Source: Candidatus Zambryskiibacteriota bacterium (lineage in GTDB: Bacteria > Patescibacteriota > Minisyncoccia > Phycocordibacterales > DATDWN01). Taken from it: DNA of 36,834 nt. The DNA is taken from assembly GCA_026394775.1 (NCBI GenBank), contig JAPLZY010000003.1:1-36834 (forward strand), read 5' to 3'. Of the stretch, positions 5,346 to 36,834 are shown one piece after another. Position numbers and translations under genes: made by a program. Position 1 is the stretch's first letter. Every line of letters begins with the position of its first letter. Below the pieces are notes generated by a model. It was given only the letters and a program-made list of their open reading frames with translations. It did not search any database and was not told the origin of the DNA.

Positions 5346-5362
5346 TATACTTATACAAACAT

Positions 5363-5758
5363 ATGACTGAAGATTCTTCACAAATAAAAATTCTCCTTGT
5401 TGATGACGATCGTTTTTTGCTCGATATGTATTCAGTTAAATTTCAAAAAAGCGGTCTACATGTTGACGTTGCTCCTGGAAGCAGTATTGCATTACAAAAA
5501 CTCCGTGAAGGCTATAAAGCCGATATTATTTTGCTCGATATTATTATGCCAACCATGGACGGCATTGCATTGCTCGAGATTATGCGTGCTGAAAAGCTGG
5601 CAGCAGAAGCCACTGTGGTAATGCTTACCAATCAGGCAGATGATGAAGAAAAAGCAGAGAAATTTGGTATTGACGGGTTTATTGTAAAAGCTATGACCAT
5701 ACCTTCGGAGGTGGTGGCTAAAGTGCTTGATATACATAAAAAACGTAAAAAAATATAA
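5363..5758 (+). CDS. stand-alone response-regulator receiver domain
   Basis: This 131-aa CheY-like protein has no output domain. Hallmarks are the acidic cluster DDD (residues 14-16), the phospho-acceptor Asp in IILLDIIMP (about 57), Thr in VMLTNQ (about 88) and Lys in GFIVKAM (about 110). It is placed between pilB (17 nt after) and pilT (2 nt before). A role in controlling the balance of extension and retraction is likely by context, as with single-domain regulators of twitching motility in other bacteria. The cognate kinase is not in the window. Confidence 0.9.
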   Translation: MTEDSSQIKILLVDDDRFLLDMYSVKFQKSGLHVDVAPGSSIALQKLREGYKADIILLDIIMPTMDGIALLEIMRAEKLAAEATVVMLTNQADDEEKAEKFGIDGFIVKAMTIPSEVVAKVLDIHKKRKKI

Positions 5759-5760
5759 CC

Positions 5761-6822
5761 ATGGAACATAAACAAATAATCACTGACCTGATAGATAATT
5801 TGATCGAACAAGAAGCTTCCGATCTGCATTTGTCTGAAGATAAGTTGCCGATCATGCGTGTTGCAAGCTCGCTTATTCCACTTGTAAGGTATAAGGTGCT
5901 ATCGAGACAAGACTTAAAAGGGATACTCGACACGCTCCTTTCTCAAAAACAAAAAGAACAATTTGTAGATCAGAAAGAAGTTGATTTTGCTTATGACCAT
6001 AGAGGTATCATACGTCTTCGAGGTAATGCTTATTTTCAGCTTGGAAAAATTAGTGTTGCACTCCGTCTGATCCCAAAAAAGATCCGTACCATGGAAGAAT
6101 TAAATCTTCCTCCAATTCTTGAATCCTTTGTAAATAAACAACAAGGCTTTTTTCTAGTGGTGGGTCCTACCGGTCAAGGTAAGAGTACTACCTTGGCAGC
6201 CATGATAAACCACATCAATACACATCGTCTTGAACACATTATCACAATCGAAGACCCTATTGAGTATATTTTTGAATCAGATAAATCACTTGTCGAACAA
6301 CGTGAAATTCGAGAAGATACACCTGACTTCCATACGGCACTTCGTGGTGTATTTCGTCAAGATATCGACGTCTTGATGATTGGGGAAATGAGAGAGCCAG
6401 AGACTATCGCAACAGCAGTGACTGCGGCAGAAACAGGGCATTTGGTTTTTTCAACACTTCATACCAACACTGCATCTCAGACAGTTGCTCGTATCGTAGA
6501 CTCATTTGTTGCTGAACAGCAAAGTCAGATTCGCGTGCAGTTATCTGCATCTTTGATTGGCATATTCTCTCAACGACTCATTCCGCGAATTTCAGGAGGC
6601 ATGGTTCCTGCATACGAGCTTTTGATCAACAACGCGGCAGTTGCAAACTTGATTCGAGAAAACAGAGTTCATGAATTAAATTCAGTTATCGAAACAGGTT
6701 CAGAGCTCGGAATGATTGACCTTAACAGGACTCTTTCTGAACTTGTGAAAGCTGGTGAGATTACGGTAGAAAACGCATACATGTTCTCTCAGAATTCAAA
6801 AGGTTTGGAGCGTCTTTTGTAA
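5761..6822 (+). CDS. pilT: type IV pilus retraction ATPase PilT
   Basis: This 353-aa protein is the retraction motor. Motifs: Walker A GPTGQGKST (135-143, K141), Asp box ITIEDPIEY, Walker B VLMIGEMREPETI (about 207-219), His box AAETGHLVFSTLHTN, and a C-terminal VANLIREN resembling the AIRNLIRE retraction motif of PilT. The length is normal for PilT (340-370). It starts 2 nt after the receiver-domain gene. Confidence 0.95.
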   Translation: MEHKQIITDLIDNLIEQEASDLHLSEDKLPIMRVASSLIPLVRYKVLSRQDLKGILDTLLSQKQKEQFVDQKEVDFAYDHRGIIRLRGNAYFQLGKISVALRLIPKKIRTMEELNLPPILESFVNKQQGFFLVVGPTGQGKSTTLAAMINHINTHRLEHIITIEDPIEYIFESDKSLVEQREIREDTPDFHTALRGVFRQDIDVLMIGEMREPETIATAVTAAETGHLVFSTLHTNTASQTVARIVDSFVAEQQSQIRVQLSASLIGIFSQRLIPRISGGMVPAYELLINNAAVANLIRENRVHELNSVIETGSELGMIDLNRTLSELVKAGEITVENAYMFSQNSKGLERLL

Positions 6823-6828
6823 AATACC

Positions 6829-8040
6829 ATGTTATATACATATAAAGCATTAAATCAAGAAGGAGGTGTAAAAGAAGGTACTATCGACACGATAACAATC
6901 GATAGCGCTATTTCTGCACTTCAAAAACAGGGTCTCATTATTTCATTTATTAAACCAGTTGAGGATAAAAAAGATATTTTGAGTTTTGAGTTCAATTTTT
7001 TTTCAGGAGTCTCAAATAAAGATATTGTTGTTCTCTCGCGCCAAATGGCAACTCTTTTTGATGCTCAGGTTTCAGCATTAAGAATTTTTCGATTGATTGG
7101 TGGGCAAGTGGAGAGTGTTCTGTTGCGTAAAACACTTGCGCAAGTATCAGATGATCTACAGGGAGGCCTGAGTATCTCAGCGTCTTTAGGAAAACACCCA
7201 AAAATATTTAGTGACTTTTATGTCAACATGGTGCGAGCGGGAGAAGAGTCAGGAAAACTCGACGAAACATTTAACTATTTGGCGGACTACCTAGACCGTA
7301 CATACGAAGTCACCGCAAAAGCAAAAAATGCATTGGTCTATCCTATCTTTGTTATCGCAACCTTTTTTGGAGTTATGATCCTGATGCTTACCGTTATTAT
7401 TCCGAAAATAGGTACGATGATCAAAGACTCTGGTCAAGAAGTTCCATTTTACACAAAGATTGTCCTCGCGTTTTCTGACTTTTTTGTACATTACGGTATC
7501 TTTCTTGGGATAGGCGTTGCCATATTTCTTTTTGGTGTTTATAAATACTCACAAACATCTGAGGGTGCTCGATATTTAGGTCAGTTAAAACTCGAATTAC
7601 CTTATCTAGGAGATTTGTATAGAAAGCTCTACCTTTCTCGTATTGCTGACAATATGAACACGATGATCCTTTCAGGTATCCCAATGCTTCGAGCACTTGA
7701 GATCACCTCGTCTGTGGTGGATAATGAAATATATAAAAATGTACTCGACAGCTCATTAAATGCTGTAAAGGGCGGTATGTCACTTTCAAACTCATTTGCT
7801 CAATATGACCAACAAATACCAGGAATAATGGTGCAGATGATAAAAGTGGGTGAGGAGACAGGGGAGCTTGGAAATATTTTGAAAACACTCGCAAAGTTCT
7901 ATCAAAGAGAGGTTACTAATGCAGTAGATACCCTTGTAGGACTCATTGAACCGATTATGATCGTTTCTCTGGGGCTTGGGGTGGGGGTTTTGCTGGCTTC
8001 GGTTCTTATGCCTATTTACAACATCGCTTCCGCCGGCTAA
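6829..8040 (+). CDS. pilC: type IV pilus inner-membrane platform protein PilC/GspF
   Basis: The protein is 403 aa. Two repeated T2SSF domains begin at LSRQMATLFDAQVSALRIF (about 65-85) and LYLSRIADNMNTMILSGIP (about 265-283). Each is followed by the family motifs (MVRAGEESGKL and MIKVGEETGEL). Membrane segments are near residues 165-190, 215-240 and 370-395. PilC is the rotary platform that couples PilB/PilT to pilin. The C-terminus ends at ASAG, and a long hairpin follows. Confidence 0.95.
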   Translation: MLYTYKALNQEGGVKEGTIDTITIDSAISALQKQGLIISFIKPVEDKKDILSFEFNFFSGVSNKDIVVLSRQMATLFDAQVSALRIFRLIGGQVESVLLRKTLAQVSDDLQGGLSISASLGKHPKIFSDFYVNMVRAGEESGKLDETFNYLADYLDRTYEVTAKAKNALVYPIFVIATFFGVMILMLTVIIPKIGTMIKDSGQEVPFYTKIVLAFSDFFVHYGIFLGIGVAIFLFGVYKYSQTSEGARYLGQLKLELPYLGDLYRKLYLSRIADNMNTMILSGIPMLRALEITSSVVDNEIYKNVLDSSLNAVKGGMSLSNSFAQYDQQIPGIMVQMIKVGEETGELGNILKTLAKFYQREVTNAVDTLVGLIEPIMIVSLGLGVGVLLASVLMPIYNIASAG

Positions 8041-8076
8041 GAAAGCTTCCAAATTATGAACAATCTCATCGTCTAA

Positions 8077-8132
8077 AATTTAAAAATAGTTCTCACCAGC
8101 GCACTCAGGCTGGCTTAAACTATTTTTAAATT
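8077..8132. terminator. long inverted repeat after pilC
   Basis: A perfect 15-bp inverted repeat (8077-8091 with 8118-8132) encloses a second 5-bp GC stem CCAGC/GCTGG (8096-8100 and 8109-8113). It separates pilC from the pilin promoter and can form on either strand. The T-run lies inside the distal arm, so it may be a terminator or a 3'-end stabilising structure. Confidence 0.55.
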
Positions 8133-8200
8133 CTATACGCGACCTTGTCCAAATTTGAAAGCTCTCTGTGTTCTTACTTCTAATCTCTAGCTTCTACCCT

Positions 8201-8275
8201 AGGGTTATCCACAGGTGATGACTGTGTTGATACAGAAGCTCACGTATAATATGAATATTCACTAATAGTTAATAC
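8201..8275 (+). promoter_or_regulatory. promoter of first pilin gene, with DnaA-box-like site
   Basis: TTATCCACA, the consensus DnaA box, sits at 8205-8213. TATAAT follows at 8245-8250 inside CTCACGTATAATAT. The leader is then about 20 nt and has no Shine-Dalgarno. The same blocks recur before the second pilin (8756-8810), so the promoter was duplicated with the gene. Confidence 0.6.
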
Positions 8276-8716
8276 ATGCATATGGTTAAAAAAGGTTTTA
8301 CATTGATTGAATTGTTGGTTGTGATTGCTATCATCGGTCTGCTCTCTTCTGTCGTCCTTGCTTCTCTCAACACAGCACGAGCAAAGGGTGCAAATGCTGC
8401 AGTTAAATCAAACTTGAATAATACACGTGCACAAGCTCAGCTTGTGTATGATAATGATAACGGTGTATATACAAACGTATGTGCAAACACTCAGGTTATT
8501 GCTGCAATGGCAGCTGCAGCTACTGCGGGTGGTGGTACAGCAGGTACAGCTACGAACGACTGTAATGTAAGTACAACTGCATGGGCATCGTACTCAGTTT
8601 TGAGATCAGCAGAAGGTACATTCACTACATGGTGTGTTGACTCAACAGGTGCGTCAAAGGGTCAAACAGCAGCTAACGTGACAACTCTTGGTACAACAGG
8701 TACCGCATGTATATAG
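8276..8716 (+). CDS. type IV major pilin-like protein, copy 1
   Basis: This 146-aa prepilin has a short basic leader and the class III cleavage/methylation site KKG|FTLIELLVVIAIIGLLSS (Glu5 present), followed by the usual hydrophobic helix. The globular part is Ala/Gly/Thr-rich and has four cysteines (CANT, NDCN, TWCV, ACI), possibly two disulphides. ATG at 8276 and ATG at 8282 are both possible starts. It is about 80% identical to the next gene and shares an exactly identical 3' end, including the untranslated tail. The first copy says LSSVVLASLNTARAKGANAAVK, as does the second. Confidence 0.92.
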   Translation: MHMVKKGFTLIELLVVIAIIGLLSSVVLASLNTARAKGANAAVKSNLNNTRAQAQLVYDNDNGVYTNVCANTQVIAAMAAAATAGGGTAGTATNDCNVSTTAWASYSVLRSAEGTFTTWCVDSTGASKGQTAANVTTLGTTGTACI

Positions 8717-8734
8717 TATTTTTTCTTTAGTTTC
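8594..8734 (+). repeat. 141-bp perfect direct repeat, copy 1
   Basis: The last 123 nt of the first pilin gene and 18 nt of its 3' tail are base-for-base identical to 9234-9374. The middle of the two genes has diverged. Such a mosaic is typical of recent duplication plus gene conversion. Confidence 0.9.
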
Positions 8735-8755
8735 CTAATTTCTAACCCCTACCAT

Positions 8756-8906
8756 AAGGTTATCCACAGGTGAGGTATATCTTCATATGCAAGCTCACGT
8801 ATAATATAAATATTCGTTTTTTATAAAACGGGTATCCAATAAAGAGAGTATTGGGTACGGAGTATTATTAATAAAAGTATTTGAATAATCGTTAATACAT
8901 ATATAT
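8756..8906 (+). promoter_or_regulatory. promoter and long hairpin leader of second pilin gene
   Basis: A DnaA-box consensus TTATCCACA (8760-8768) and TATAAT (8800-8805) match the first pilin promoter. Unlike copy 1, the leader is about 95 nt. It contains a 10-bp hairpin (8832-8841 with 8849-8858, one G-T pair, loop AAGAGAG) before the shared TCGTTAATACATA start region. The second copy could therefore be regulated after transcription start. Confidence 0.55.
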
Positions 8907-9356
8907 ATGTTTAAGTTTAAAAAAGGTTTTACATTGATTGAATTGTTGGTTGTGATTGCTATCATCGGTATTCTTTCTTCTGTTGTGCTTGCTTCTCTCA
9001 ACACAGCACGAGCAAAGGGTGCAAATGCTGCAGTTAAATCAAACTTGAATAATTTGCGTGCACAAACTGAAATTGTGTATGATGACAATAACGGTAGCTA
9101 CCTTAGCCCAAACTCTGTTTGTGCAAATCCACAAGTTGTTGCTGCAATGGCAGCAGCAGCTACTGCGGGTGGTGGTACAGCAGGTGCAGCTACGAACGAC
9201 TGTAATGTGGCAGCAGGCGCATGGGCAGCGTATTCAGTTTTGAGATCAGCAGAAGGTACATTCACTACATGGTGTGTTGACTCAACAGGTGCGTCAAAGG
9301 GTCAAACAGCAGCTAACGTGACAACTCTTGGTACAACAGGTACCGCATGTATATAG
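8907..9356 (+). CDS. type IV major pilin-like protein, copy 2
   Basis: This 149-aa prepilin has the processing site KKG|FTLIELLVVIAIIGILSS and the same helix and Cys positions as copy 1. Differences cluster in residues about 48-80 (for example EIVYDDNNGSYLSPNSVCANPQ), the surface-exposed alpha-beta loop in pilins. The C-terminal 41 residues are identical to copy 1. The two may be alternative major pilins, or a major and a minor subunit. The prepilin peptidase gene follows directly. Confidence 0.92.
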   Translation: MFKFKKGFTLIELLVVIAIIGILSSVVLASLNTARAKGANAAVKSNLNNLRAQTEIVYDDNNGSYLSPNSVCANPQVVAAMAAAATAGGGTAGAATNDCNVAAGAWAAYSVLRSAEGTFTTWCVDSTGASKGQTAANVTTLGTTGTACI

Positions 9357-9374
9357 TATTTTTTCTTTAGTTTC
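9234..9374 (+). repeat. 141-bp perfect direct repeat, copy 2
   Basis: Identical partner of 8594-8734, 640 bp downstream. Confidence 0.9.
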
Positions 9375-9445
9375 TTTTGTGCTTATTTTTCTTGTACACA
9401 ATAGGCATATATATTTTTCTTGTTCAGTTGTATAATAAAAGCAAT

Positions 9446-10291
9446 ATGATGATCTTATTTTTTCTTGCTGTAGCTATTCTTGGTTTATTGGTAGGAAGTT
9501 TTTTGAACGTTGTTATTTATCGATACAACACAGGTCTCTCTTTTGCCAAAGGTCGCTCTCAGTGTTTTGTTTGTGGGAAAAAGCTTGTGTGGTACGAGCT
9601 TATACCTGTAGTAAGTTTTGTTATACAAAAAGGTAGATGTCGCTCATGCCAAACAAAGATCTCTCTCCAGTACCCGGTAGTCGAAGCACTCACTTCGCTT
9701 TTGTTTGTTGCTGTGGCGTGGAGACAGGTGTGTTTGTATCCTGTGTTTTCAGTATTTGAAAATGGTCTTTCATACTCGTGTATTCTTGCTGTGTATTATG
9801 CTGTCGTAGTCTCACTCCTGCTCGCTATCGCAGTCTATGATATGAGACACAAGATTATCCCTGACGGTCTCGTATATACCTTTATTGCTCTTGCCACAGC
9901 AAAACTTCTCTTATTTACTTATTTTTTTGGTTTACCGTTGAACATGGGACATACTTTAAATCTTCTTGCACCACTCTTACTTTTTACACCATTTGCACTT
10001 CTCTGGCTTGTGTCAAAGGGAATGTGGATTGGGTTTGGTGATGCAAAGCTTGCGTTTGGCATTGGAGCCTTACTTGGTTTACCTCTTGGTCTCTCGGCTA
10101 TTATGCTTGGTTTTTGGATCGGAGCAGCGGTAAGTATACTCTTGCTTGTTCTTCAAAAGTTTATGTGGGGTCAAACAAAAATGAATTTAAAGTCAGAAAT
10201 ACCTTTTGCCCCTTTTTTAATTATCGGTACACTCGTTGTTTTGTTTACACATCTCGACATTCTCGGGCTAACAGACTTGCTCAATGGTTAA
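9446..10291 (+). CDS. pilD: prepilin peptidase/N-methyltransferase PilD
   Basis: About 281 aa from the ATG at 9446 (MMILFFLAVAILGLLVGSFLNVVIYR); a TATAAT ends 9 nt upstream. PilD cleaves and methylates prepilins. The SFLNVVIYR motif, the paired zinc site CFVCG...CRSC in the first cytosolic loop, and both catalytic aspartates are present (YDMRHKIIPDG, and GFGDAKLAFGIGALLG with the GxGD motif). Six to eight membrane segments follow. Here the four cysteines are intact, unlike those in PilB and LigA of this window. The 3' end overlaps the next gene by 8 nt (ATGGTTAA). Confidence 0.95.
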   Translation: MMILFFLAVAILGLLVGSFLNVVIYRYNTGLSFAKGRSQCFVCGKKLVWYELIPVVSFVIQKGRCRSCQTKISLQYPVVEALTSLLFVAVAWRQVCLYPVFSVFENGLSYSCILAVYYAVVVSLLLAIAVYDMRHKIIPDGLVYTFIALATAKLLLFTYFFGLPLNMGHTLNLLAPLLLFTPFALLWLVSKGMWIGFGDAKLAFGIGALLGLPLGLSAIMLGFWIGAAVSILLLVLQKFMWGQTKMNLKSEIPFAPFLIIGTLVVLFTHLDILGLTDLLNG

Positions 10292-10907
10292 ATTTTTTAG
10301 ACAGCATAAAGAGGGGTTCACACTTATTGAGCTGGTTGTGGTGGCAGGTATTATCAGTGTCATTATGCTCATTGTGGTTTTTGATACTAGAAAATTTAAC
10401 GACAGTATCGCTCTTAAATCTGCTGCTGCAGATGTTTCGATTGCTATGCGCCAAGCACAAAATTTTGGAGTGTCTGTCAAAGAGTCGAGCCCAGGTCAGT
10501 TTAATGCACCGTATGGAATGTGGTTTGATTTATTAAATCCATCCAATATTTTTATATACTCAGATACAAACAACAACCGAGCATTTAACGGCTCTTGGGA
10601 TTGTGCTGGCAACGATGAGTGTAAAGAAAAGATACCGTTACGTGCAGGGATTCGAATAAATCGCTTGTGCGCAACAGATTTTGGAAATTCGCTTACGTGT
10701 TTTAATACAGGTTTTAGATCTATTACGTTGACGTATGTAAGGCCAAACCCTGAGCCACTCGTGAGGTCATTTGATACAAATAATGCTCAGTTGTTTGGCG
10801 CATGGAAGGGTCTTTATGTAGAGCTGGTGAGTCAACGGGGGACATTTATATATGTGGTTACTGATGCAGTGTCTGGTCAAATAACAGTGCAAAATACTAT
10901 TCCATGA
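10284..10907 (+). CDS. minor pseudopilin, GspH/FimT-like
   Basis: This 207-aa protein has the prepilin site KEG|FTLIELVVVAGIISVIML and then an extended globular domain (AAADVSIAMRQAQNFGVSVKE), as in GspH/FimT pseudopilins that sit at the pilus tip. It contains a CAGNDEC pair and a later cysteine pair. It overlaps pilD by 8 nt and the next minor pilin by 4 nt, so the genes are translationally coupled. The subfamily is assigned from sequence style and order, not from a search. Confidence 0.8.
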   Translation: MVKFFRQHKEGFTLIELVVVAGIISVIMLIVVFDTRKFNDSIALKSAAADVSIAMRQAQNFGVSVKESSPGQFNAPYGMWFDLLNPSNIFIYSDTNNNRAFNGSWDCAGNDECKEKIPLRAGIRINRLCATDFGNSLTCFNTGFRSITLTYVRPNPEPLVRSFDTNNAQLFGAWKGLYVELVSQRGTFIYVVTDAVSGQITVQNTIP

Positions 10908-11458
10908 TGTTTAAAAAAAACAAAAATCAAAAAGGCTTTACTCTTATTGAAATCATGGTCTCTTTGTCGGTATTTATTGTCATAATGACCGTCAGCATGG
11001 GATCAATTTTAAGTATTTTTGATGCCAATAAAAAGTCGCAGACAAAAAAGATAGCGATGGACAATCTTAACTTTGCTCTCGACTCTGTTTCGCGCACCAT
11101 CCGTTTCGGAACAAACTTTTCTTGTGGTACGAGTGCTTCAAACCCACCGCCTGCAAACGATTGTCCTTCTGGCAGCACTTCTTTTAGTGTAAGAGATTCA
11201 AGTGGACAGCTTGTTGTTTACAGTCTTCTTAATGGACGAGTCATGAAAGCGGTCAACAATGCTACGGCAAATGCTATTACATCTTCTGAGGTAAGTATTA
11301 CACGAGTAACTTTTTATGTATTTGGTTCTGCAGTTTGGCCTGACCTTACTCAACCACGGGTGCTGATCAGTATTTCAGGTACAGTAGGTAGCAAAACGTC
11401 TACAAGATCAGTTTTTAACTTAGAGACCTTGGTTTCTCAGCGTAAGCTAGATATATAA
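10904..11458 (+). CDS. minor pseudopilin, PilW/GspJ-like
   Basis: This 184-aa prepilin has the processing site QKG|FTLIEIMVSLSVFIVIMTVS and a C-terminal half of beta-strand character. A block MDNLNFALDSVSRTIRFG matches the helix after the membrane anchor in GspJ/PilW proteins. Two cysteines (CGTSASNPPPANDC) could form a disulphide. ATGATG at the start overlaps the stop of the previous gene. Confidence 0.78.
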   Translation: MMFKKNKNQKGFTLIEIMVSLSVFIVIMTVSMGSILSIFDANKKSQTKKIAMDNLNFALDSVSRTIRFGTNFSCGTSASNPPPANDCPSGSTSFSVRDSSGQLVVYSLLNGRVMKAVNNATANAITSSEVSITRVTFYVFGSAVWPDLTQPRVLISISGTVGSKTSTRSVFNLETLVSQRKLDI

Positions 11459-11459
11459 T

Positions 11460-12023
11460 ATGAACTTTCTTAAATACAATTTTAAAAAAACAGGATTTAC
11501 ATTAGTAGAAGTACTTGTGGCTATTTCTATTTTATCGATTTCTATTCTTGCGACTTTTACCGCAGTACAAAATTCTCTCAAGTCTACAAACTTTGCAGAA
11601 GACCAGGTGATTGCCTATTACCTTGCCGACGAAGCGCTTGAGTTTATCAGAAATTTTCGAGACTCAAATGCAATCAGGCATGTGAGTGCGCTCGGTAGTG
11701 GAGGTACCTACGGATGGCTTTCTGGATTCGCGGGTGCTGGAGGAGATCCATGTTTTCCTGGTAAGTTTTGTCATATTGATGTACCAGGAAATAGAGTCTA
11801 TGAGTGTAGTTCAGACGCTGCTTCATGTCCTGTTCTTTTGTATAATGCATCAGCTGGTGTGTACGAATATGTAACTGGTACAGCGACTCAATTTAAGCGT
11901 TCCGTCTCTATTACAATGACAAATGCAACGGAAGCTGTGGTGAGAGTACAAGTTTCCTGGACAGCTCAAGGTATTTCAAAAGACCATGTTCAGTCGGTAA
12001 CCCTGAGAAACTGGACTGAATAG
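11460..12023 (+). CDS. minor pseudopilin, PilV/GspI-like
   Basis: This 187-aa prepilin has the processing site KTG|FTLVEVLVAISILSISILATF. The motif FTLVEVLVA followed by YYLADEALEFIRNFRDSN is characteristic of PilV/GspI. The C-terminal part has four cysteines. It starts 1 nt after the preceding stop. Confidence 0.8.
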   Translation: MNFLKYNFKKTGFTLVEVLVAISILSISILATFTAVQNSLKSTNFAEDQVIAYYLADEALEFIRNFRDSNAIRHVSALGSGGTYGWLSGFAGAGGDPCFPGKFCHIDVPGNRVYECSSDAASCPVLLYNASAGVYEYVTGTATQFKRSVSITMTNATEAVVRVQVSWTAQGISKDHVQSVTLRNWTE

Positions 12024-12031
12024 AAACTATT

Positions 12032-14549
<2,518 letters not shown>

Positions 14550-30228: not shown

Positions 30229-30447
30229 ATGACTACAATCTCAGTACCACTAACTCCAGATTTGGAGAAATTCATAAAAAACATGGTCAAGAATGGTCGT
30301 GCTAACAATAAAGCAGATGCTGTTCGAAAAGCCCTTCTTCAACTAGCAGAAAATGAAGCGGTTGATGCTGTTTTGCGAGCTGAACGAGAACTTGCACAAG
30401 GTCTTGGTATGCGAGGTGATCTTCGTGAGCTTGCAAAAAAAATATAA
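30229..30447 (+). CDS. ParD/RHH-type antitoxin
   Basis: The 72-aa protein begins MTTISVPLTPDLEKFIKNMVKNGRANNKADAVRKAL, a ribbon-helix-helix DNA-binding domain (beta strand 2-8, helices about 10-22 and 27-42). The C-terminal half (AERELAQGLGMRGDLRELAKKI) would bind the toxin. It stands 5 nt before the toxin gene under its own promoter and operator. It acts as antidote and autorepressor (inferred from the family). Confidence 0.8.
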   Translation: MTTISVPLTPDLEKFIKNMVKNGRANNKADAVRKALLQLAENEAVDAVLRAERELAQGLGMRGDLRELAKKI

Positions 30448-30452
30448 AAAAT

Positions 30453-30713
30453 ATGATAGACATTATCTACCTTCCAAGTTTCGTTCGCCAGTATAAGAAT
30501 TTAGAAAAAAGCTTGCAGGATGAAGTTATTGAAAAGATAGAATTATTTAAGAATAAAGAAAATCATAAGCGGTTGAAGTTGCATAAACTCCATGGTCCAC
30601 TCAAAGGTAGATGGAGTTTTTCTGTAAACTATAAGATACGAATTGCATGTGTTTTTGAATCAAAAAATATAGTCGCATTTTTATCAATTGGCGATCATAA
30701 AGTATATGAATAA
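30453..30713 (+). CDS. RelE/ParE-family toxin
   Basis: The 86-aa protein IDIIYLPSFVRQYKNLEKSLQDEVIEKIELF...LHKLHGPLKGRWSFSVNYKIRIACVFE has the RelE/ParE fold pattern with basic residues (LKLHKLHGPLKGRW, YKIRIA). RelE-like proteins cut mRNA on ribosomes, ParE-like proteins block gyrase; the sequence does not tell which. It pairs with the upstream antitoxin, and its stop overlaps the next start. Confidence 0.8.
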   Translation: MIDIIYLPSFVRQYKNLEKSLQDEVIEKIELFKNKENHKRLKLHKLHGPLKGRWSFSVNYKIRIACVFESKNIVAFLSIGDHKVYE

Positions 30714-31311
30714 CCCATCTCTTCAAAATCTCCTCAAGTTCTCAGAATTCATTGCTCAGTTTCGTATGGTTGAGCGTACCCTCTACCTTGAAAGATTGAA
30801 GAGAGATGAAAATGATGCTGAGCATTGCTGTGTGTTGGCTTTGACTGCAGGGTACATCATTGCGAGTGAGAAACTAGATCTTGATGTAGGGAAAGTGATG
30901 CTCTATGCCCTTGCACACGATCTCGTAGAAACCTATGCAGGAGATACAGATGCATATAGTACCGATCAGAATGCTCATGCCACAAAAGAGGTGAGAGAAC
31001 ATGAGGCACTTTTGCGTATAGAGAAAGAATTCCCAGAGTTTCCTGAGCTTATCGGAGCACTGAACAAGTTTGAAGCAAAAGAAGATAAAGAAGCTCGCTT
31101 TGTATATGCACTCGATAAAATACAGCCAACTATTGCGGTGTATCTGGATGGAGGGTATTCATGGAAAAAACAAGGTATTACCCTTGAACAAGTTATTACA
31201 AAAAAGAGAGATGTAATCGCAAATGCTGACTCTCTTGTGTTTGATTATTTCAACCAATTGACTGCTCTTCTAAAAAAAGAAGAAATAGAACTTTTTCCAC
31301 AGGTACAGTAG
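30706..31311 (+). CDS. HD-domain phosphohydrolase, YfbR/HDDC2-like
   Basis: About 201 aa from the ATG at 30706, overlapping the toxin stop (ATGAATAA). Metal ligands are visible: H40 in DENDAEHCCVLAL, H71-D72 in LYALAHDLVE, and a C-terminal Asp in FVYALDKIQP. The RDENDAEH and ALAHDLVETYAGD motifs match HD-domain 5'-nucleotidase family members such as YfbR. Such enzymes remove phosphate from deoxynucleoside monophosphates. It may be a passenger in the toxin-antitoxin operon. Confidence 0.8.
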   Translation: MNNPSLQNLLKFSEFIAQFRMVERTLYLERLKRDENDAEHCCVLALTAGYIIASEKLDLDVGKVMLYALAHDLVETYAGDTDAYSTDQNAHATKEVREHEALLRIEKEFPEFPELIGALNKFEAKEDKEARFVYALDKIQPTIAVYLDGGYSWKKQGITLEQVITKKRDVIANADSLVFDYFNQLTALLKKEEIELFPQVQ

Positions 31312-31333
31312 CGGTTGTCGTCTAATGGTAGGA
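31311..31333 (+). pseudogene. 5' fragment of a Glu/Gln-like tRNA
   Basis: GCGGTTGTCGTCTAATGGTAGGA has a tRNA 5' acceptor strand, TC at 8-9, and a D-arm with GG (TAATGGTAG). It matches Glu/Gln-type 5' halves. The next bases (AAT) break the D-stem and no matching 3' half (CAACCGC) is found in the window. It is cut where the LAGLIDADG cassette begins. Confidence 0.6.
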
Positions 31334-31338
31334 AATTA

Positions 31339-31353
31339 TGATATAATTTTCCT
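31339..31353 (+). promoter_or_regulatory. extended -10 of the LAGLIDADG gene
   Basis: TGATATAAT (31339-31347) ends 6 nt before the ATG at 31354. The cassette carries its own leaderless-type promoter. Confidence 0.55.
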
Positions 31354-32052
31354 ATGCCATCTAATTGGAATAAAGGTAAAACTAAATTAATTGATTTTTT
31401 AGTTAAAAAAATATCGGATACTATGAAATTGAGGAAGTTCGATAATTTTAAAGTTTGGAGGGATAAAATGAAGTTGGAAGGGAAGATTAAATCAAAATAT
31501 GTTGAATTAAAAAAGAATGGAGATTTAGCAGAACTAATAGGGGTGACCCTAGGAGACGGCCATGTGTGTAAATATTTACGTACCGAAGAATTGCGGATTA
31601 TATCAAATTTAAATAATCCAGGTTTTGTTCATAGATATGCTGATTTGGTTTATAAAGTTTTTGGTAAAAAAGCATATGTGCGTGCAAGTAATCAGTCTAA
31701 TAGTATACGAATTGGATTATATGAAAAGTATATTGGGAGTTGTTTAGGGATAGCTGCAGGAGCTAGAAAAGACCTTGTCATCATGGTCCCGGACTGGATT
31801 TTAGTCAAAAAAAATTATATAGTAAGGTACCTCAGGGGTTTGTATGAGGTAGAGGGGTCCCATTCGGTTCATGTGCCAACATGCATTTATAAAGTTCAGT
31901 TTTCAAACAGTAATCAGTCTATGTTAGAAAATGTGTTTACATTGGTTTCTCGATTAGGATTCCATCCTCATAAAAGTAAGAATATGATCCATTTATCGAG
32001 AAAAGCCGAGGTGTTCAAGTTTCTTGATGTGATAGAGTTTCGAAAGTATTAA
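31354..32052 (+). CDS. LAGLIDADG homing endonuclease between tRNA fragment and tRNA-Gln
   Basis: This 232-aa protein has two LAGLIDADG motifs: LAELIGVTLGDGH (58-70, acid D68) and YLRGLYEVEGSH (159-170, acid E167). It is a monomeric double-motif enzyme. A Lys-rich N-terminus (1-50) precedes it. It starts after its own -10, 21 nt downstream of a broken tRNA 5' fragment, and stops 4 nt before tRNA-Gln(CTG). No intron core was seen around it, so it is free-standing. It is likely a mobile gene that cuts tRNA-gene sequences; the target is inference. Confidence 0.85.
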   Translation: MPSNWNKGKTKLIDFLVKKISDTMKLRKFDNFKVWRDKMKLEGKIKSKYVELKKNGDLAELIGVTLGDGHVCKYLRTEELRIISNLNNPGFVHRYADLVYKVFGKKAYVRASNQSNSIRIGLYEKYIGSCLGIAAGARKDLVIMVPDWILVKKNYIVRYLRGLYEVEGSHSVHVPTCIYKVQFSNSNQSMLENVFTLVSRLGFHPHKSKNMIHLSRKAEVFKFLDVIEFRKY

Positions 32053-32056
32053 TATT

Positions 32057-32127
32057 TGCCAGATCGGCTAAAGGTAGGCCCTCGCTCTCTGAAAGCGGTA
32101 ATCTTGGTTCGATTCCAAGTCTGGCAG
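32057..32127 (+). tRNA. tRNA-Gln(CTG), integration site
   Basis: Acceptor TGCCAGA/TCTGGCA, D-arm GGC/GCC, anticodon stem TCGCT/AGCGG and loop CTCTGAA (anticodon CTG). T-loop TTCGATT is regular. Discriminator G73 fits Gln. CCA is not encoded (CAG follows). The 5' side abuts the LAGLIDADG gene; the 3' 60 nt serve as the C-terminal coding part of the minus-strand recombinase. Confidence 0.93.
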
Positions 32128-33582
32128 CAGTCTCGGTAAATCACTGTTTTTAGGTGTATTTGCCAATAGCATAAATGGGTTTTTGAATAGATATTGAGCC
32201 ACGGATTTGTTTTTGAATGTTGCGTTCGAGAGTAACTGTTCTAGCATTTTTCTCTTTTCGTACTCATCAAGAGTCAAATACTTTTCTGAGGCTTGGTTGC
32301 CGTCTAAAAAAACTTTTTTGATCTGTTCGATAGCTTCGGCGGATACAGCACCTTTAAGCTGAACTTTTTTCAGTTGTTTCTTGAGTTCGGTTCTCTTGTT
32401 CTCAATCTCAAGCATTTTTTGCTCATACAAATCCTTTCTCAAGACTTGAGCAGTGTAACTATCTACAAGGAGGGATTCTTTCTCTGAAAGCCCTTGTAGC
32501 TCGTTAAGGAGGTTGTCGGTACTGGTATCCACATAGGTTGCTTTACCCGTATTCAACTCCTTGTATGCCTCATAGGAAATCTCAATAGTTTCTTTGTCAA
32601 AAGCAAGGACTTTAAACATTTCAGAGAGGGATGTATCAACATATTCAGATCGCATATATCCTTTATGCTCATCACAGATACCTTTGCCATTGGTGCAGTA
32701 GTAATACTTGTGTCCCTTGCGAGTGTCAACGGTTAGCGCACACCCGCAATGTTCACATTTGAGAAATCCTTGAGCAGAATAAAAATATTTTTTTGGATGT
32801 GGATGAGCACGACCGTGCAAAATTGCTTGAGCGTCATTCCATTGTTTTATAGAGACGATTCCTTTGTGTTTTCCCTCATATATTTTTCCATCACGTTCCA
32901 TCATCCCACAGTAAAAACGATTGATAAAAAATCTGTGTATCTGATTTGATCGACACATGCCACCAGTTTTTGTACGAAGTCCTTCGTCATACAAAACTTT
33001 TGTGATTTGTTCGAGAGTGTTTCCACCAGTTAAATATAGTTCATAGGCTCTCACAATGTACGGAGCAAACTTTTTATCTATCTTCACTGTCTTTGTCGCT
33101 TTATCATTTACATATCCAAGTGGTGCATGATTAGGCCATTCTCCTTTTTCAAGTTTTGCACGATTGCCACGTTTTACATTACTGCTTAAATCTCTGATCA
33201 TTTGATTGGCTTGACCGAAATTGACGGCAATCAAAATGACATTATCTGTTGGCAGATGCACACCCTCAAAGGTGTGAATTTTTTGAATGACACCACGTTG
33301 AAGTAAATCAATTATTTTTCCACCATCAATAAAATTACGAGCAAGACGATCGAGTTTCCAACAGATGATTCCTTGAGCTTTGCCTTTCTTAATCATGTCT
33401 ATCATCTTGTTAAAGACAGGACGACCCTCAGCTTTAGCCGATCTGCTCTCGTGCATGATTTCTAATACATCAAGATTATTTTTCTCTGCAATCTCTCGCA
33501 TTTCAGCTTCTTGAGAATCCAAAGACATGACCTGTTTGTCCTCGGTATCAGTGGATTTACGGCAGTAGATGATGTATTTCAT
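32068..33582 (-). CDS. large serine recombinase, C-terminus antisense to tRNA-Gln
   Basis: This 504-aa serine integrase or resolvase has catalytic S10 in YCRKSTDTEDK, and the conserved LDRLAR (77-82) of the resolvase domain (1-145). A Recombinase domain (about 150-260) and a zinc ribbon with C276, C279, C296 and C303 (KCEHCG...YCTNGKGIC) follow. A long coiled coil is at about 340-430. The last 19 residues (LPDLESNQD...) are encoded by the strand opposite tRNA-Gln, a sign that a crossover occurred inside the tRNA gene. It integrates and excises the element that contains it. It overlaps the next gene by 4 nt. Confidence 0.92.
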   Translation of the reverse strand: MKYIIYCRKSTDTEDKQVMSLDSQEAEMREIAEKNNLDVLEIMHESRSAKAEGRPVFNKMIDMIKKGKAQGIICWKLDRLARNFIDGGKIIDLLQRGVIQKIHTFEGVHLPTDNVILIAVNFGQANQMIRDLSSNVKRGNRAKLEKGEWPNHAPLGYVNDKATKTVKIDKKFAPYIVRAYELYLTGGNTLEQITKVLYDEGLRTKTGGMCRSNQIHRFFINRFYCGMMERDGKIYEGKHKGIVSIKQWNDAQAILHGRAHPHPKKYFYSAQGFLKCEHCGCALTVDTRKGHKYYYCTNGKGICDEHKGYMRSEYVDTSLSEMFKVLAFDKETIEISYEAYKELNTGKATYVDTSTDNLLNELQGLSEKESLLVDSYTAQVLRKDLYEQKMLEIENKRTELKKQLKKVQLKGAVSAEAIEQIKKVFLDGNQASEKYLTLDEYEKRKMLEQLLSNATFKNKSVAQYLFKNPFMLLANTPKNSDLPRLLPDLESNQDYRFQRARAYL

Positions 33583-33797
33583 GATTTTAGTTTAACTTTT
33601 TTCTCTACTTCCTCAGAAGCGTTGATTAAGGATAGCAAACATTCCTGACAATACAAATCTGGCTTCGATTCATCTACATCCTGATACTCTATGAAATCAA
33701 TTTGGTATGTATCAGTTTTGTTCGGCTTTTCACCACAAAAATAATCGAGAAGATGAATGCAACCACAAGGATGAATATGTAATTTTTTAGTTTCCAT
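33579..33797 (-). CDS. small Cys-rich protein
   Basis: This 72-aa protein has METKKLHIHPCGCIHLLDYFCGEK and later DLYCQECLLSLI. The cysteine pattern CxC...CxxC suggests a zinc-binding protein. It sits between Rep (11-nt overlap) and the recombinase (4-nt overlap), so all three are one operon. It could help recombination or replication, or regulate them. No family recognised. Confidence 0.6.
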   Translation of the reverse strand: METKKLHIHPCGCIHLLDYFCGEKPNKTDTYQIDFIEYQDVDESKPDLYCQECLLSLINASEEVEKKVKLKS

Positions 33798-34626
33798 TTT
33801 TTGTTTTGGTTACTTGAGAGTCGTCATACACGCTATAGGTGCATTCCCCAAGATATGACTGATATTTGGTTACTTTGACTGGTGGTTCGTCTCCGACAAT
33901 GAGGTTGATGAGGTCATCAAACGGACTAATTTTCGTCGACACTGGACGCAGAGTGTTGCGACCACAGACATACGATTTTGATTGATAGAGACGTCTATCT
34001 GACATTGTTTTGAACATGTACTTTGCCATGTACGTAGCCAGTTTAGGAGATCCGTCGGTGGGGACACAATCAAGAAAACCTCTTGCCCATTGATGTTGAA
34101 AGTGACGAGTACCTCTGGCTGTTGTTGAGTCATAATTATGTTCGTTACAAAATGCTAAAAATCTTTCATGTACTTTTGGTTTTATTTTCAACCATGCACT
34201 CCACGGAATCTCCTGAAAAATATCAATGATGGGTAAACCCCAGAAAATACAGTGAAAATGAACAGTACCTCTTTTCTGATATTCTGGTACAGCGATGTAT
34301 CGGAATTCAGCACCATACATTTTTCGCAATCTGGTGATAAATTCTGTGAGATATGTATAGGCAGTAACCACAGATTTTTCATTGACGGTTGTGAGCGTGA
34401 TGAAGATAGGTTTGTCATGTGATTTAAGATTGGTATGAATGAGACGAAAGAAATTTCTGCGTGCTCGGACTACATTGTCTAGTCTTTTTTGCAATGACTG
34501 GTCAATGGTAAGTTCCTCTTTTTTTCTTTGAGTAAATACTGTTCGCAGTCTCTTTGGTTGAGGCTCTTTTTCGTATTGGTATAGTTCTGCATAATTTCCT
34601 GATTGAATCAATTTTGAATAAGGCAT
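33787..34626 (-). CDS. HUH rolling-circle replication initiator
   Basis: This 279-aa Rep-like protein has the three HUH motifs: I FITLTT (75-80), II GTVHFHCIFWG (120-130, His123 and His125) and III TYMAKYMFK (198-206, Tyr199 and Tyr203, with Lys202/Lys206). The Y-x2-K-Y spacing resembles ssDNA-phage and plasmid Reps of the viral gpII/VP4 type. Such a protein nicks the plus origin and starts rolling-circle replication. With the serine recombinase it makes an integrated plasmid- or phage-like element. No capsid gene is visible. It starts ATG at 34626. Confidence 0.88.
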   Translation of the reverse strand: MPYSKLIQSGNYAELYQYEKEPQPKRLRTVFTQRKKEELTIDQSLQKRLDNVVRARRNFFRLIHTNLKSHDKPIFITLTTVNEKSVVTAYTYLTEFITRLRKMYGAEFRYIAVPEYQKRGTVHFHCIFWGLPIIDIFQEIPWSAWLKIKPKVHERFLAFCNEHNYDSTTARGTRHFQHQWARGFLDCVPTDGSPKLATYMAKYMFKTMSDRRLYQSKSYVCGRNTLRPVSTKISPFDDLINLIVGDEPPVKVTKYQSYLGECTYSVYDDSQVTKTKNGN

Positions 34627-34660
34627 TGAATGAGTTATTAAAGACTAATTATTAAGTGAG

Positions 34661-34855
34661 TTATTTATCGAGTCTCTCAAGCGGGGTGGTCATCCCGCCC
34701 GAACTCAGTTGAGTTTCGGGCGGAGATTTCCCACTCCCGCTTTCCGCGAATACAGCAAACATCTCAGTGTATGATTTGAGATATTCTTGAGCTGTCTCAT
34801 CTGAAATATCTAAATTATATTTATGCTTGAAATATGCTTGTATTCGTTCGACCAA
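34661..34855 (-). CDS. small hypothetical protein upstream of rep
   Basis: About 64 aa from a TTG start at 34855 (VERIQAYFKHKYNLDISDETAQEYLKSY). The frame stays open further upstream (NFQFSQQ) to 34876, but without an ATG. The N-terminal helical part looks like a real small domain. The C-terminal GSGKSPPETQLSSGGMTTPLE is encoded by a GC-rich hairpin island. It precedes rep in the same direction by 34 nt. Function unknown. Confidence 0.5.
   Translation of the reverse strand: MVERIQAYFKHKYNLDISDETAQEYLKSYTEMFAVFAESGSGKSPPETQLSSGGMTTPLERLDK
34681..34748. other. GC-rich hairpin island, candidate nick origin
   Basis: Three GC-rich stems lie in AT-rich surroundings: GCGGG/CCCGC (34681-34685 with 34694-34698), CCGCCCGAA/TTCGGGCGG with CTCA/TGAG (34695-34723), and GCGGA/TCCGC (34721-34748 region). 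Rolling-circle origins are often such hairpins next to rep. No nick site was identified. Confidence 0.4.
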
Positions 34856-35398: not shown

Positions 35399-36088
35399 AT
35401 GAAGAATACGAACGAACGGGGTATCTACCCCTCCGTGATGATGCATCACTCGAGCTACAGCCAACTGGCTATCGGTGGAGCGATGCTGACTCATTTCCAC
35501 CAAGACGAAGAAGAAGCTTCCTGCTATCAGTGCACGCCGACTGGTTGCAGTGGATGGCGGACTCGCTTTGACGGCGGAAATGGTCCTGGCATTCAAGACT
35601 TGCCGTGCGACTTGGTCGCAATGTATGTCGAAGGTCAGATCAACATCTCGGGCTACGAAGGGGCGTACGACTCTGAAGAAATCGTCGTACCGCTCTGTTT
35701 CGCTGTTGTGGTTTTCCGATCGAAAGAGGAGAAGGACTACAAGGGCAAAGTTGTTCGTGAAGCCAGAGAAGAGTACATCTATCTCTGGAGCCACTTCGGC
35801 TTTACCGACCGAGTTCGGCACGATGCTGTGTACGATCTGAAGGATGCATTCGAAGTCGCCCGCAAAGGTGGACCGACAATGACATTCGATGAACGAATTG
35901 CTCACTCTCGAGAAATCGGATGGGACAATGCCAACTCAGAACGTGAGTGGCACCTCGTCGGCAAAGGTCGGGTTCCTGGTCGCATTCGTCAACTTCTTCA
36001 CCGCACGGTGAACGAAACGAAGCGGGTCGTCGACAAGAACTTCGGTCAGGGTGGTGCGTTCTTCAAGCTTCCGCAGAAAAAGAAGTAG
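35399..36088 (+). CDS. hypothetical cargo protein of the element
   Basis: About 229 aa from the ATG at 35399 with a strong SD. It begins MKNTNERGIYPSVMMHHSSYSQLAIGG. A Cys/Gly patch (EEASCYQCTPTGCSGW) near residues 40-55 may bind metal. The middle is acidic and aromatic, and the C-terminus is basic (ending KLPQKKK). I recognise no family. G+C is near 50%, well above the host genes, and codons such as CGG/GAC/CTC are frequent, which suggests foreign origin. It is followed by a hairpin and a second GC-rich gene. Confidence 0.7.
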   Translation: MKNTNERGIYPSVMMHHSSYSQLAIGGAMLTHFHQDEEEASCYQCTPTGCSGWRTRFDGGNGPGIQDLPCDLVAMYVEGQINISGYEGAYDSEEIVVPLCFAVVVFRSKEEKDYKGKVVREAREEYIYLWSHFGFTDRVRHDAVYDLKDAFEVARKGGPTMTFDERIAHSREIGWDNANSEREWHLVGKGRVPGRIRQLLHRTVNETKRVVDKNFGQGGAFFKLPQKKK

Positions 36089-36227: not shown

Positions 36228-36590
36228 ATGGGAAAAGCAGGAGTTGAACCGGAAGTTCGATACAACGTTCATTGCATGGAGTGCGGGAGCGTATGGCAAC
36301 CACTCGCCAAGAGTCCGCTCTGGTGGGCAGCCAAACAAAGAGCAGAAAAGGGATTCCTCGATGCTCTCCACGTCAGTGGCAAGAAGTGCGGTTGTGTGAA
36401 AGAAGAAAGACAACCCAACGCTCCTTTCCGAGTCTTTGGCTACGATTTCGATTGCCGAGACTTCAACATCCCATTCACCACCTTCATGGGCCCCGTCAAA
36501 GCGTTCATCGAAGCAAACAAAAGTGGTGATGTGGTGTTCATCCAAGGAGTCTCCAGTTCAGTGGAACAGAGACTCAAAATGATTTTCTAA
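36228..36590 (+). CDS. hypothetical cargo protein with Cys pairs
   Basis: About 120 aa from the ATG at 36228, chosen because GAGGAG (36212-36217) lies 10 nt before it; the open frame extends upstream without support. It contains HCMECGSVWQPLAKS (about 16-30) and KKCGCVKEE (about 50-58), CxxC and CxC pairs that could bind one zinc. The C-terminal half (FRVFGYDFDCRDFN...MGPVKAFIEANKSGDVVFIQG) looks alpha/beta. Family not recognised. Base composition matches the previous gene. Confidence 0.65.
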   Translation: MGKAGVEPEVRYNVHCMECGSVWQPLAKSPLWWAAKQRAEKGFLDALHVSGKKCGCVKEERQPNAPFRVFGYDFDCRDFNIPFTTFMGPVKAFIEANKSGDVVFIQGVSSSVEQRLKMIF

Positions 36591-36655: not shown

Positions 36656-36748
36656 AAAATGTAAAAATATTGTACAGTTTCTTTAAGTAACTCAGGCACC
36701 CACAACTCTCAATTCGAATTTAAATACAAACTAATTTCTCCACAGAAG

Positions 36749-36770
36749 GAAGCGTCACAGCTTCTTTTTT
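36749..36770 (+). terminator. intrinsic terminator between cargo and transposase
   Basis: GAAGC-GTCACA-GCTTC is followed by T6 (36765-36770). In the plus direction it is a canonical terminator; on the minus strand the same bases encode the last residues of the transposase. Confidence 0.7.
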
Positions 36771-36834
36771 CGTCTCCGATGTTGTTTGAGTACTTCTCCA
36801 GGAGTCTTGTAATCAAGACATTTCATGATCCTCC
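36755..36834 (-). mobile_element. 3' end of an IS30-like transposase gene (cut by window edge)
   Basis: The minus-strand frame from the window edge to the stop at 36755-36757 reads RIMKCLDYKTPGEVLKQH then RRRKKKL. The KCLDYKTPGEV block is the C-terminal motif of IS30-family DDE transposases (RP.KCLxxKTPxEV). The basic tail ends the protein. The gene continues beyond the window. It marks another insertion near the element and may belong to it. Confidence 0.65.

Follow-up and report, generated by a model that had tools for sequence, protein, structure and literature searches.

A tRNA-directed family of large serine recombinases in Patescibacteria and a probable integrative rolling-circle plasmid-like element at a tRNA-Gln gene

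The 36,834-nucleotide contig JAPLZY010000003.1 of a Candidatus Zambryskiibacteriota bacterium (assembly GCA_026394775.1), referred to here as the window, is an entire contig (C23) of a genome of 753 kb that is 99.7% complete. A first-pass annotation made from the letters alone proposed an integrated element at a tRNA-Gln gene between positions 32057 and 34855, and the tRNA, a large serine recombinase (LSR), a Cys-rich open reading frame (ORF) and a two-tyrosine HUH Rep were all recovered there. The features of the locus are as follows.

32057..32128, plus strand: tRNA-Gln(CTG), called by ARAGORN; the target gene, its 3′ part being the B half of attL
32107..32115, plus strand: T-loop 9-mer GTTCGATTC, the predicted zinc-ribbon (ZD) motif of the attB half-site, at -22 to -14 from tRNA nt 74
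32125..32128, plus strand: predicted crossover core CAGC (tRNA nt 71-74), from the core/tRNA identity in 37 relatives
32129..32168, plus strand: element side of attL (P′ arm), also antisense to the C-terminal codons of the recombinase, from conservation in 62 loci
32068..33582, minus strand: LSR, 504 aa, from Resolvase, Recombinase and Zn_ribbon_recom profiles, family alignment A1 and the tree
33579..33797, minus strand: Cys-rich ORF, 72 aa (CxC ... CxxC), a lineage-specific accessory gene, from ORF call and profile search
33787..34626, minus strand: HUH Rep (rolling-circle initiator), 279 aa, from profiles and residues invariant in homologs
34252..34260, minus strand: HUH motif of Rep, H123-F-H125, from the homolog alignment
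34018..34032, minus strand: YxxxY catalytic tyrosines of Rep, Y199 and Y203, from the homolog alignment
34661..34855, minus strand: hallmark small ORF, 64 aa, its N-terminal half two-helix, with homologs beside Rep or recombinase in most elements

The three minus-strand genes described as overlapping do so by 4 bp (recombinase and Cys-rich ORF) and 11 bp (Cys-rich ORF and Rep), and a fourth minus-strand ORF (34661-34855), missing from the first listing, completes the unit, its start coinciding with the right edge noted at 34855. The recombinase gene enters tRNA-Gln by 61 bp on the opposite strand, an overlap comprising the stop codon and about 19 codons, in agreement with the claim that its last 19 codons are antisense tRNA-Gln. 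The Cys-rich ORF matched no family and had no homolog in any relative locus retrieved.

The recombinase scores above cut-off with three Pfam domains, Resolvase (4.8e-20), Recombinase (4.9e-13) and Zn_ribbon_recom (6.8e-06), and matches the PHROGs integrase family phrog_95 at 2.8e-80, with the catalytic region, including YCRKS, conserved in 18 homologs (alignment A1). Its best NCBIfam matches were CcrA, XisF and CcrC/B, all far under their cut-offs (CcrA 78.9 against 700). The three domains, together with the crossover core of about 4 bp and the 5-bp ZD shift (seen in one half-site) described below, place it among the LSRs.

When 347 genomes of the order were searched at the protein level, close homologs at 41–60% identity were returned, and nearly all of those on adequate contigs end at a tRNA. 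In a separate scan of named genomes, from which the best 80 of 400 relatives returned were kept for locus analysis, the recombinase terminates on a convergent tRNA 3′ end in 65 of the 80, with 12 amino-acid types of tRNA targeted (Gln, Ser, Lys, Tyr, Ile, Val, Leu, Trp, Arg, Glu, Pro and Gly). Several of the remaining 15 lie at the edge of a contig, and in three there is a tRNA no more than 230 bp away. The hosts of these 80 are Nomura-, Taylor-, Zambryski-, Kaiser-, Moran-, Falkow-, Magasanik- and Doudnabacteria and others, in keeping with the candidate phyla radiation (CPR) type of host that had been suggested, with the few records bearing non-CPR names possibly being mis-binned. The closest relative of the window recombinase (79% identity) is located at tRNA-Gln(TTG), while across the recombinase tree the amino-acid type of the tRNA switches at least 31 times. 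Another LSR clade of the order, more distantly related (about 35–40% identity, L037-L052), mostly overlaps tRNAs too (Ala, Ser, Val, Thr, Met and Gln), and plasmid records contained distant recombinases only. The first-pass remark that serine integrases seldom use tRNA genes is in line with published work (PMC4383910), yet within this family it is the norm rather than an exception for a tRNA to be used. No tRNA-directed serine recombinase, nor any serine-based cassette array, in Patescibacteria was found in the open-access literature and, within that literature, the use of many different tRNAs by serine recombinases across CPR bacteria was previously not known. At one locus (L065, G005:C14), a tRNA-Glu and a tRNA-Ser gene separated by about 70 bp each have an LSR/Rep element; the two elements point towards one another and their recombinases belong to different lineages.

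Second copies of the tRNA 3′ end, of 21, 17 and 12 bp and about 5–6 kb off, are present in some elements and led to a conserved 27-bp far-end site, consisting of GTTCCAACNTCGTMCCANNNNNCC followed by 3 nt, which lies 2–9.5 kb away in 40 of the 65 tRNA-linked loci. Searching 1.11 Mb with the first 16 nt alone gave 66 sites on the strand expected of an att site, one on the opposite strand and none in shuffled sequence. The last three bases of the far-end site equal nt 72–74 of the element's own tRNA in 36 of the 40 loci, including the rare GAC and AAC, with a 37th match (L166) once an encoded CCA is allowed; none of 20,000 permutations was as good, kinship not being accounted for. Among the 37 relatives the identity within own pairs at nt 71–74 was 0.97, 1.00, 0.97 and 0.95, against 0.66, 0.53, 0.65 and 0.95 for cross-pairs, and beyond these positions there was no excess identity, such that the shared att core is only about 4 bp, as in LSRs.

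The far-end site also contains the GTTCnAA of the T-loop, displaced outwards by exactly 5 bp relative to the tRNA. When the T-loop 9-mer GTTCGAATC (-22 to -14) was compared with the far-end arm GTTCCAACN (-27 to -19), the 5-bp shift was the best of 27 shifts with a mean of 5.9 of 9 identities, the runner-up reaching 4.7, for one half-site. In the structure of the LI integrase bound to DNA, the ZD motif of attB is closer to the centre than that of attP by 5 bp (Rutherford et al., 2013; PMC3783163). It is inferred that the zinc ribbon recognises the T-loop in attB and, in attP, the displaced copy of it; a near-universal T-loop with few core bases to match would explain how one enzyme lineage serves many tRNAs. 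On the element side of attL the P′ arm (A.t.....AAAATC..c.TTTTT.GG) is conserved in 62 loci, a conservation for which coding may account.

Rep was assigned to the HUH family by REP_ORF2-G2P (PF23343, 9.8e-16) and phrog_3419, rolling-circle initiation (1.1e-21), with H123, H125, Y199 and Y203 invariant across 12 homologs. Its predicted structure is of fair confidence (pLDDT 78) and a structural search, which the first-pass annotation had called for, matched mainly viral HUH Reps, albeit weakly (E about 0.04). An IMG/VR search for relatives of Rep returned none. Delimited relatives of the element are mostly 4–7 kb and most of those inspected carry both recombinase and HUH Rep, bearing out the proposed coupling, along with the small two-helix ORF and cargo. 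Their Rep is either of the REP_ORF2-G2P type or of the filamentous-phage G2P type (Phage_CRI 1.6e-15), the type being exchanged between elements, and their cargo includes a DNA methylase, AbiEii and a ClpP-like protease by Pfam, a major facilitator superfamily (MFS) transporter and an NYN domain by inspection, and proteins of no assigned function. The hallmark ORF, a homolog of which occurs in one delimited element that has no recombinase, is guessed to be a directionality or copy-control factor. A related element with a DNA methylase and a possible nuclease is carried on a 5.4-kb IMG/VR contig (L191), on which no terminal repeat and no tRNA were found. In the window itself the unit is followed by three further features.

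35399..36088, plus strand: cargo ORF 1, 229 aa, with a good ribosome-binding site and higher G+C; no family matched
36228..36590, plus strand: cargo ORF 2, 120 aa, without a confident family
36695..36834, no strand assigned: end resembling an insertion sequence (IS), causing the contig break; four other contigs end in the same sequence (100% identity)

The last 140 bp of the window recur unchanged at the ends of contigs C4, C9, C27 and C32, and their translation resembles the end of an IS30-type transposase. Because the contig ends inside this repeated sequence, the DNA of the element continues past 36834 and its attR lies outside the window.

These observations are best accounted for, at a probability of roughly 0.86, by an integrative rolling-circle plasmid-like element that uses a tRNA-dedicated LSR family, with the window holding its recombinase end; an integrative plasmid was among the forms the first-pass annotation suggested and is the best reading from the relatives. 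The LSR would recombine the short attP core (tRNA nt 71–74) with the 3′ end of tRNA-Gln, so that the tRNA gene would stay whole with the element downstream. One attB half-site would be the T-arm and acceptor strand of the tRNA, where the zinc ribbon would read the near-universal T-loop GTTCRAnTC, and the P arm of the element would copy this motif 5 bp further out, as attP and attB of LSRs require. Since the copied motif is near-universal, the enzyme lineage would move between tRNA genes with few core bases changing, and because integration would fuse the recombinase gene to antisense tRNA, the C-terminal tail of the recombinase would change. After the presumed excision, the HUH Rep would nick the circle and replicate it by the rolling-circle mode.

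Several points weigh against this account. The attR of the window is not visible, the contig ending in the IS, and neither an excised form nor an attP or circular junction was found in IMG/VR with the one pattern searched. The neighbourhood of tRNA-Ser(GCT) at the G064 locus is present without the element in a congener, but the tRNA there is inverted, hence there is no clean empty site, and a search with the tRNA-Lys flank of G253 found no useful relative. In the right half-sites no motif is seen apart from A/T-richness and the constraint of coding, which does not establish attP as symmetrical. The permutation test takes no account of relatedness and overstates certainty because related elements are not independent, yet the core changes in step with the tRNA across many separate lineages. 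All data are from metagenome-assembled genomes and consist of sequence only. The first-pass annotation had also taken the lack of a second tRNA-Gln 3′ copy as a refutation; no long copy was found in the window or its own genome, where the only hit was a chance 11/12 match in another gene, and the test would mislead, since the far site and the tRNA of most elements have in common just the core of about 4 bp and the T-loop mimic shifted by 5 bp.

Other explanations of the locus fare less well. The closest phage relative of Rep is the microvirus protein VP4 (30% identity) and some related elements carry the inovirus-type Rep described above, as would suit a micro- or inovirus-like single-stranded DNA (ssDNA) prophage integrating by serine recombinase, the other form suggested in the first-pass annotation. 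This is very improbable given that the resemblance is confined to the replication protein, that the type of Rep is swapped between elements, and that the other genes of the inspected 4–7 kb elements are cargo or unknowns; no phage structural gene was recognised in the delimited relatives inspected, nor a coat or assembly-ATPase gene by Pfam or PHROGs in those scanned, the element in the window being incomplete. An integrative mobilizable or conjugative element, resembling either the actinomycete integrative and conjugative elements (AICEs) or integrative mobilizable elements (IMEs) and with Rep doubling as relaxase, is unlikely, though less so. Rep has a sub-threshold match to RepSA of pSAM2 (4.3e-05) and a Rep with an integrase at a tRNA is the layout of an AICE, but AICE integrases are of the tyrosine family and neither an FtsK-like transfer ATPase nor a canonical relaxase was recognised, whether in the window or in the elements inspected. 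That the recombinase gene merely happens to end beside a tRNA could be entertained for the window alone, where the missing attR is the sole point in its favour. At the level of the family, chance is already refuted by the position common to 65 of 80 homologs, the matched cores and the shifted motif; distant LSRs on viral contigs, by contrast, lie near a tRNA in just 2 of 27 cases (some of these contigs being trimmed close to the gene).

A broader proposal builds on the plasmid-like element rather than replacing it. It is possible, though on balance doubtful, that the same recombinase family also moves cassettes of 0.2–1 kb, mostly of one gene and ending in the 27-bp site, which are stacked behind tRNA genes in the manner of an integron, with the plasmid-like element as the autonomous member. 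Patescibacteria might then possess an integron-like form of gene capture, in which a tRNA-dedicated LSR spread by a rolling-circle integrative plasmid stacks cassettes with T-loop-mimicking sites. On contig G064:C1, 15 direct sites lie within 13.6 kb behind an element of recombinase and small ORF, with intervals that mostly hold one small ORF each, mostly in the same orientation, though one interval of 6.2 kb has several genes, some of them host-like. A further site occurs 0.5–1 kb past the first in six more element loci, and eight loci without a window-type recombinase have sites 0.6–5 kb downstream of tRNA-Gln; in two of the eight (L086 and L097) the sequence right after the tRNA recurs right after the site, as expected of tandem cassettes with a common start. 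The far-site pattern was present in 22 of 347 genomes against none for the reversed control, and genome G295 has 18 sites with no recombinase match. The genome of the window has on contig C22 (L076, 4114-5133) a cassette of about 1 kb flanked by two far-end sites, one good and one degenerate. Conversely, neither movement nor circles of cassettes were seen, stacking could reflect independent insertions of small non-autonomous elements, and cassette starts are not conserved, which leaves the partner (right) half-site undefined.

The C22 cassette contains a 260-aa ORF of no known family in the opposite orientation. Its site was considered as the attR of the window and rejected, as it bounds the cassette between host genes on a contig that carries core genes. 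On G295:C1 (L082-L085) the sites form several clusters, often as pairs about 400 bp apart and mostly not beside a tRNA.

The recombinase resembles the serine integrases of phiC31, Bxb1 and Listeria A118/LI in domain order, catalytic region, short core and the 5-bp shift of the ZD motif and differs from them in being dedicated to tRNA 3′ ends, on many isoacceptors, with the T-loop as attB motif. The serine integrases of streptococcal integrative and conjugative elements (ICEs) at rumA exchange the 3′ ends of target and integrase genes such that the integrase C-terminus changes (PMC4701971). The C-terminus would be changed upon integration here too, but at rumA a dispensable protein gene is altered whereas here the tRNA stays intact. 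A further likeness is to the staphylococcal cassette chromosome (SCC, including SCCmec), given the sub-threshold Ccr matches of the recombinase. SCC elements are stacked in tandem by LSRs at the 3′ end of one gene. The Ccr recombinases, however, act at rlmH on larger islands, while the present family uses many tRNAs for 4–7 kb elements with an HUH Rep and possibly for cassettes of less than 1 kb; with its low CcrA score and a tRNA target, the element does not belong to SCC.

With AICEs such as pSAM2 and other tRNA-integrating plasmids the element shares a rolling-circle Rep and an integrase at a tRNA 3′ end, in contrast to which its integrase is an LSR rather than a tyrosine integrase, a core of about 4 bp and a T-loop mimic take the place of long tRNA-restoring repeats, and no transfer gene was found. 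The arrays recall integrons in having one-gene cassettes in tandem with a conserved recombination site at the end of each, and the site clusters without a recombinase recall the CALINs of integrons (clusters of attC sites lacking integron integrases). They are nevertheless anchored at tRNA genes rather than attI and the recombinase is serine- and not tyrosine-type. Far-end sites were also considered as integron attC and rejected, for although the start is similar (GTTCCAAC), the 27-bp site has, by inspection, no conserved second arm in its flanks, unlike folded attC.

A large monophyletic set of LSRs and more distant relatives of the same order use tRNAs routinely across many lineages of Patescibacteria. 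The rule can be read from sequence, with the T-loop as attB motif, its mimic shifted by 5 bp in attP and the core at tRNA nt 71–74, and therefore allows att pairs to be predicted for dozens of enzymes and provides a potentially retargetable class of integrases for bacteria that have few genetic tools. It also offers a way to delimit CPR mobile elements that standard searches for tRNA repeats would miss. Should the cassette arrays prove mobile, they would represent an independently evolved integron-like system.

Elsewhere in the window a large cluster at 3612-12523 resembles, by inspection, a type IV pilus or competence system and includes two near-duplicate prepilin genes (8276-8716 and 8907-9356); it is a possible route of DNA uptake. 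Beside the integration locus, weak Pfam matches indicate a small ribbon-helix-helix/RelE-like toxin-antitoxin pair (30229-30713).

Immediately upstream of the target, a LAGLIDADG ORF (31354-32052) is situated between a remnant of a tRNA-Gln 5′ half and the complete tRNA-Gln, which has an altered D arm (31311-32128). The remnant reads TCGTCTAATGGTAGGA and its intact counterpart in L003 reads TGCCAGATCGTCTAATGGTAGGA. The same arrangement occurs in three other genomes (L003, L004 and L009) with protein identity of 53–59%. The ORF appears to be an intron-less homing endonuclease whose insertion point is the D arm of tRNA-Gln and which supplies a cleavage-resistant replacement 5′ half. Among loci L005-L013, several (L006, L007, L010, L011 and L012) have inverted copies of the tRNA-Gln T-arm (e.g., CTTGGACTCGAAC) about 30–100 bp downstream of tRNA-Gln, which are possibly the tails of decayed recombinase genes.

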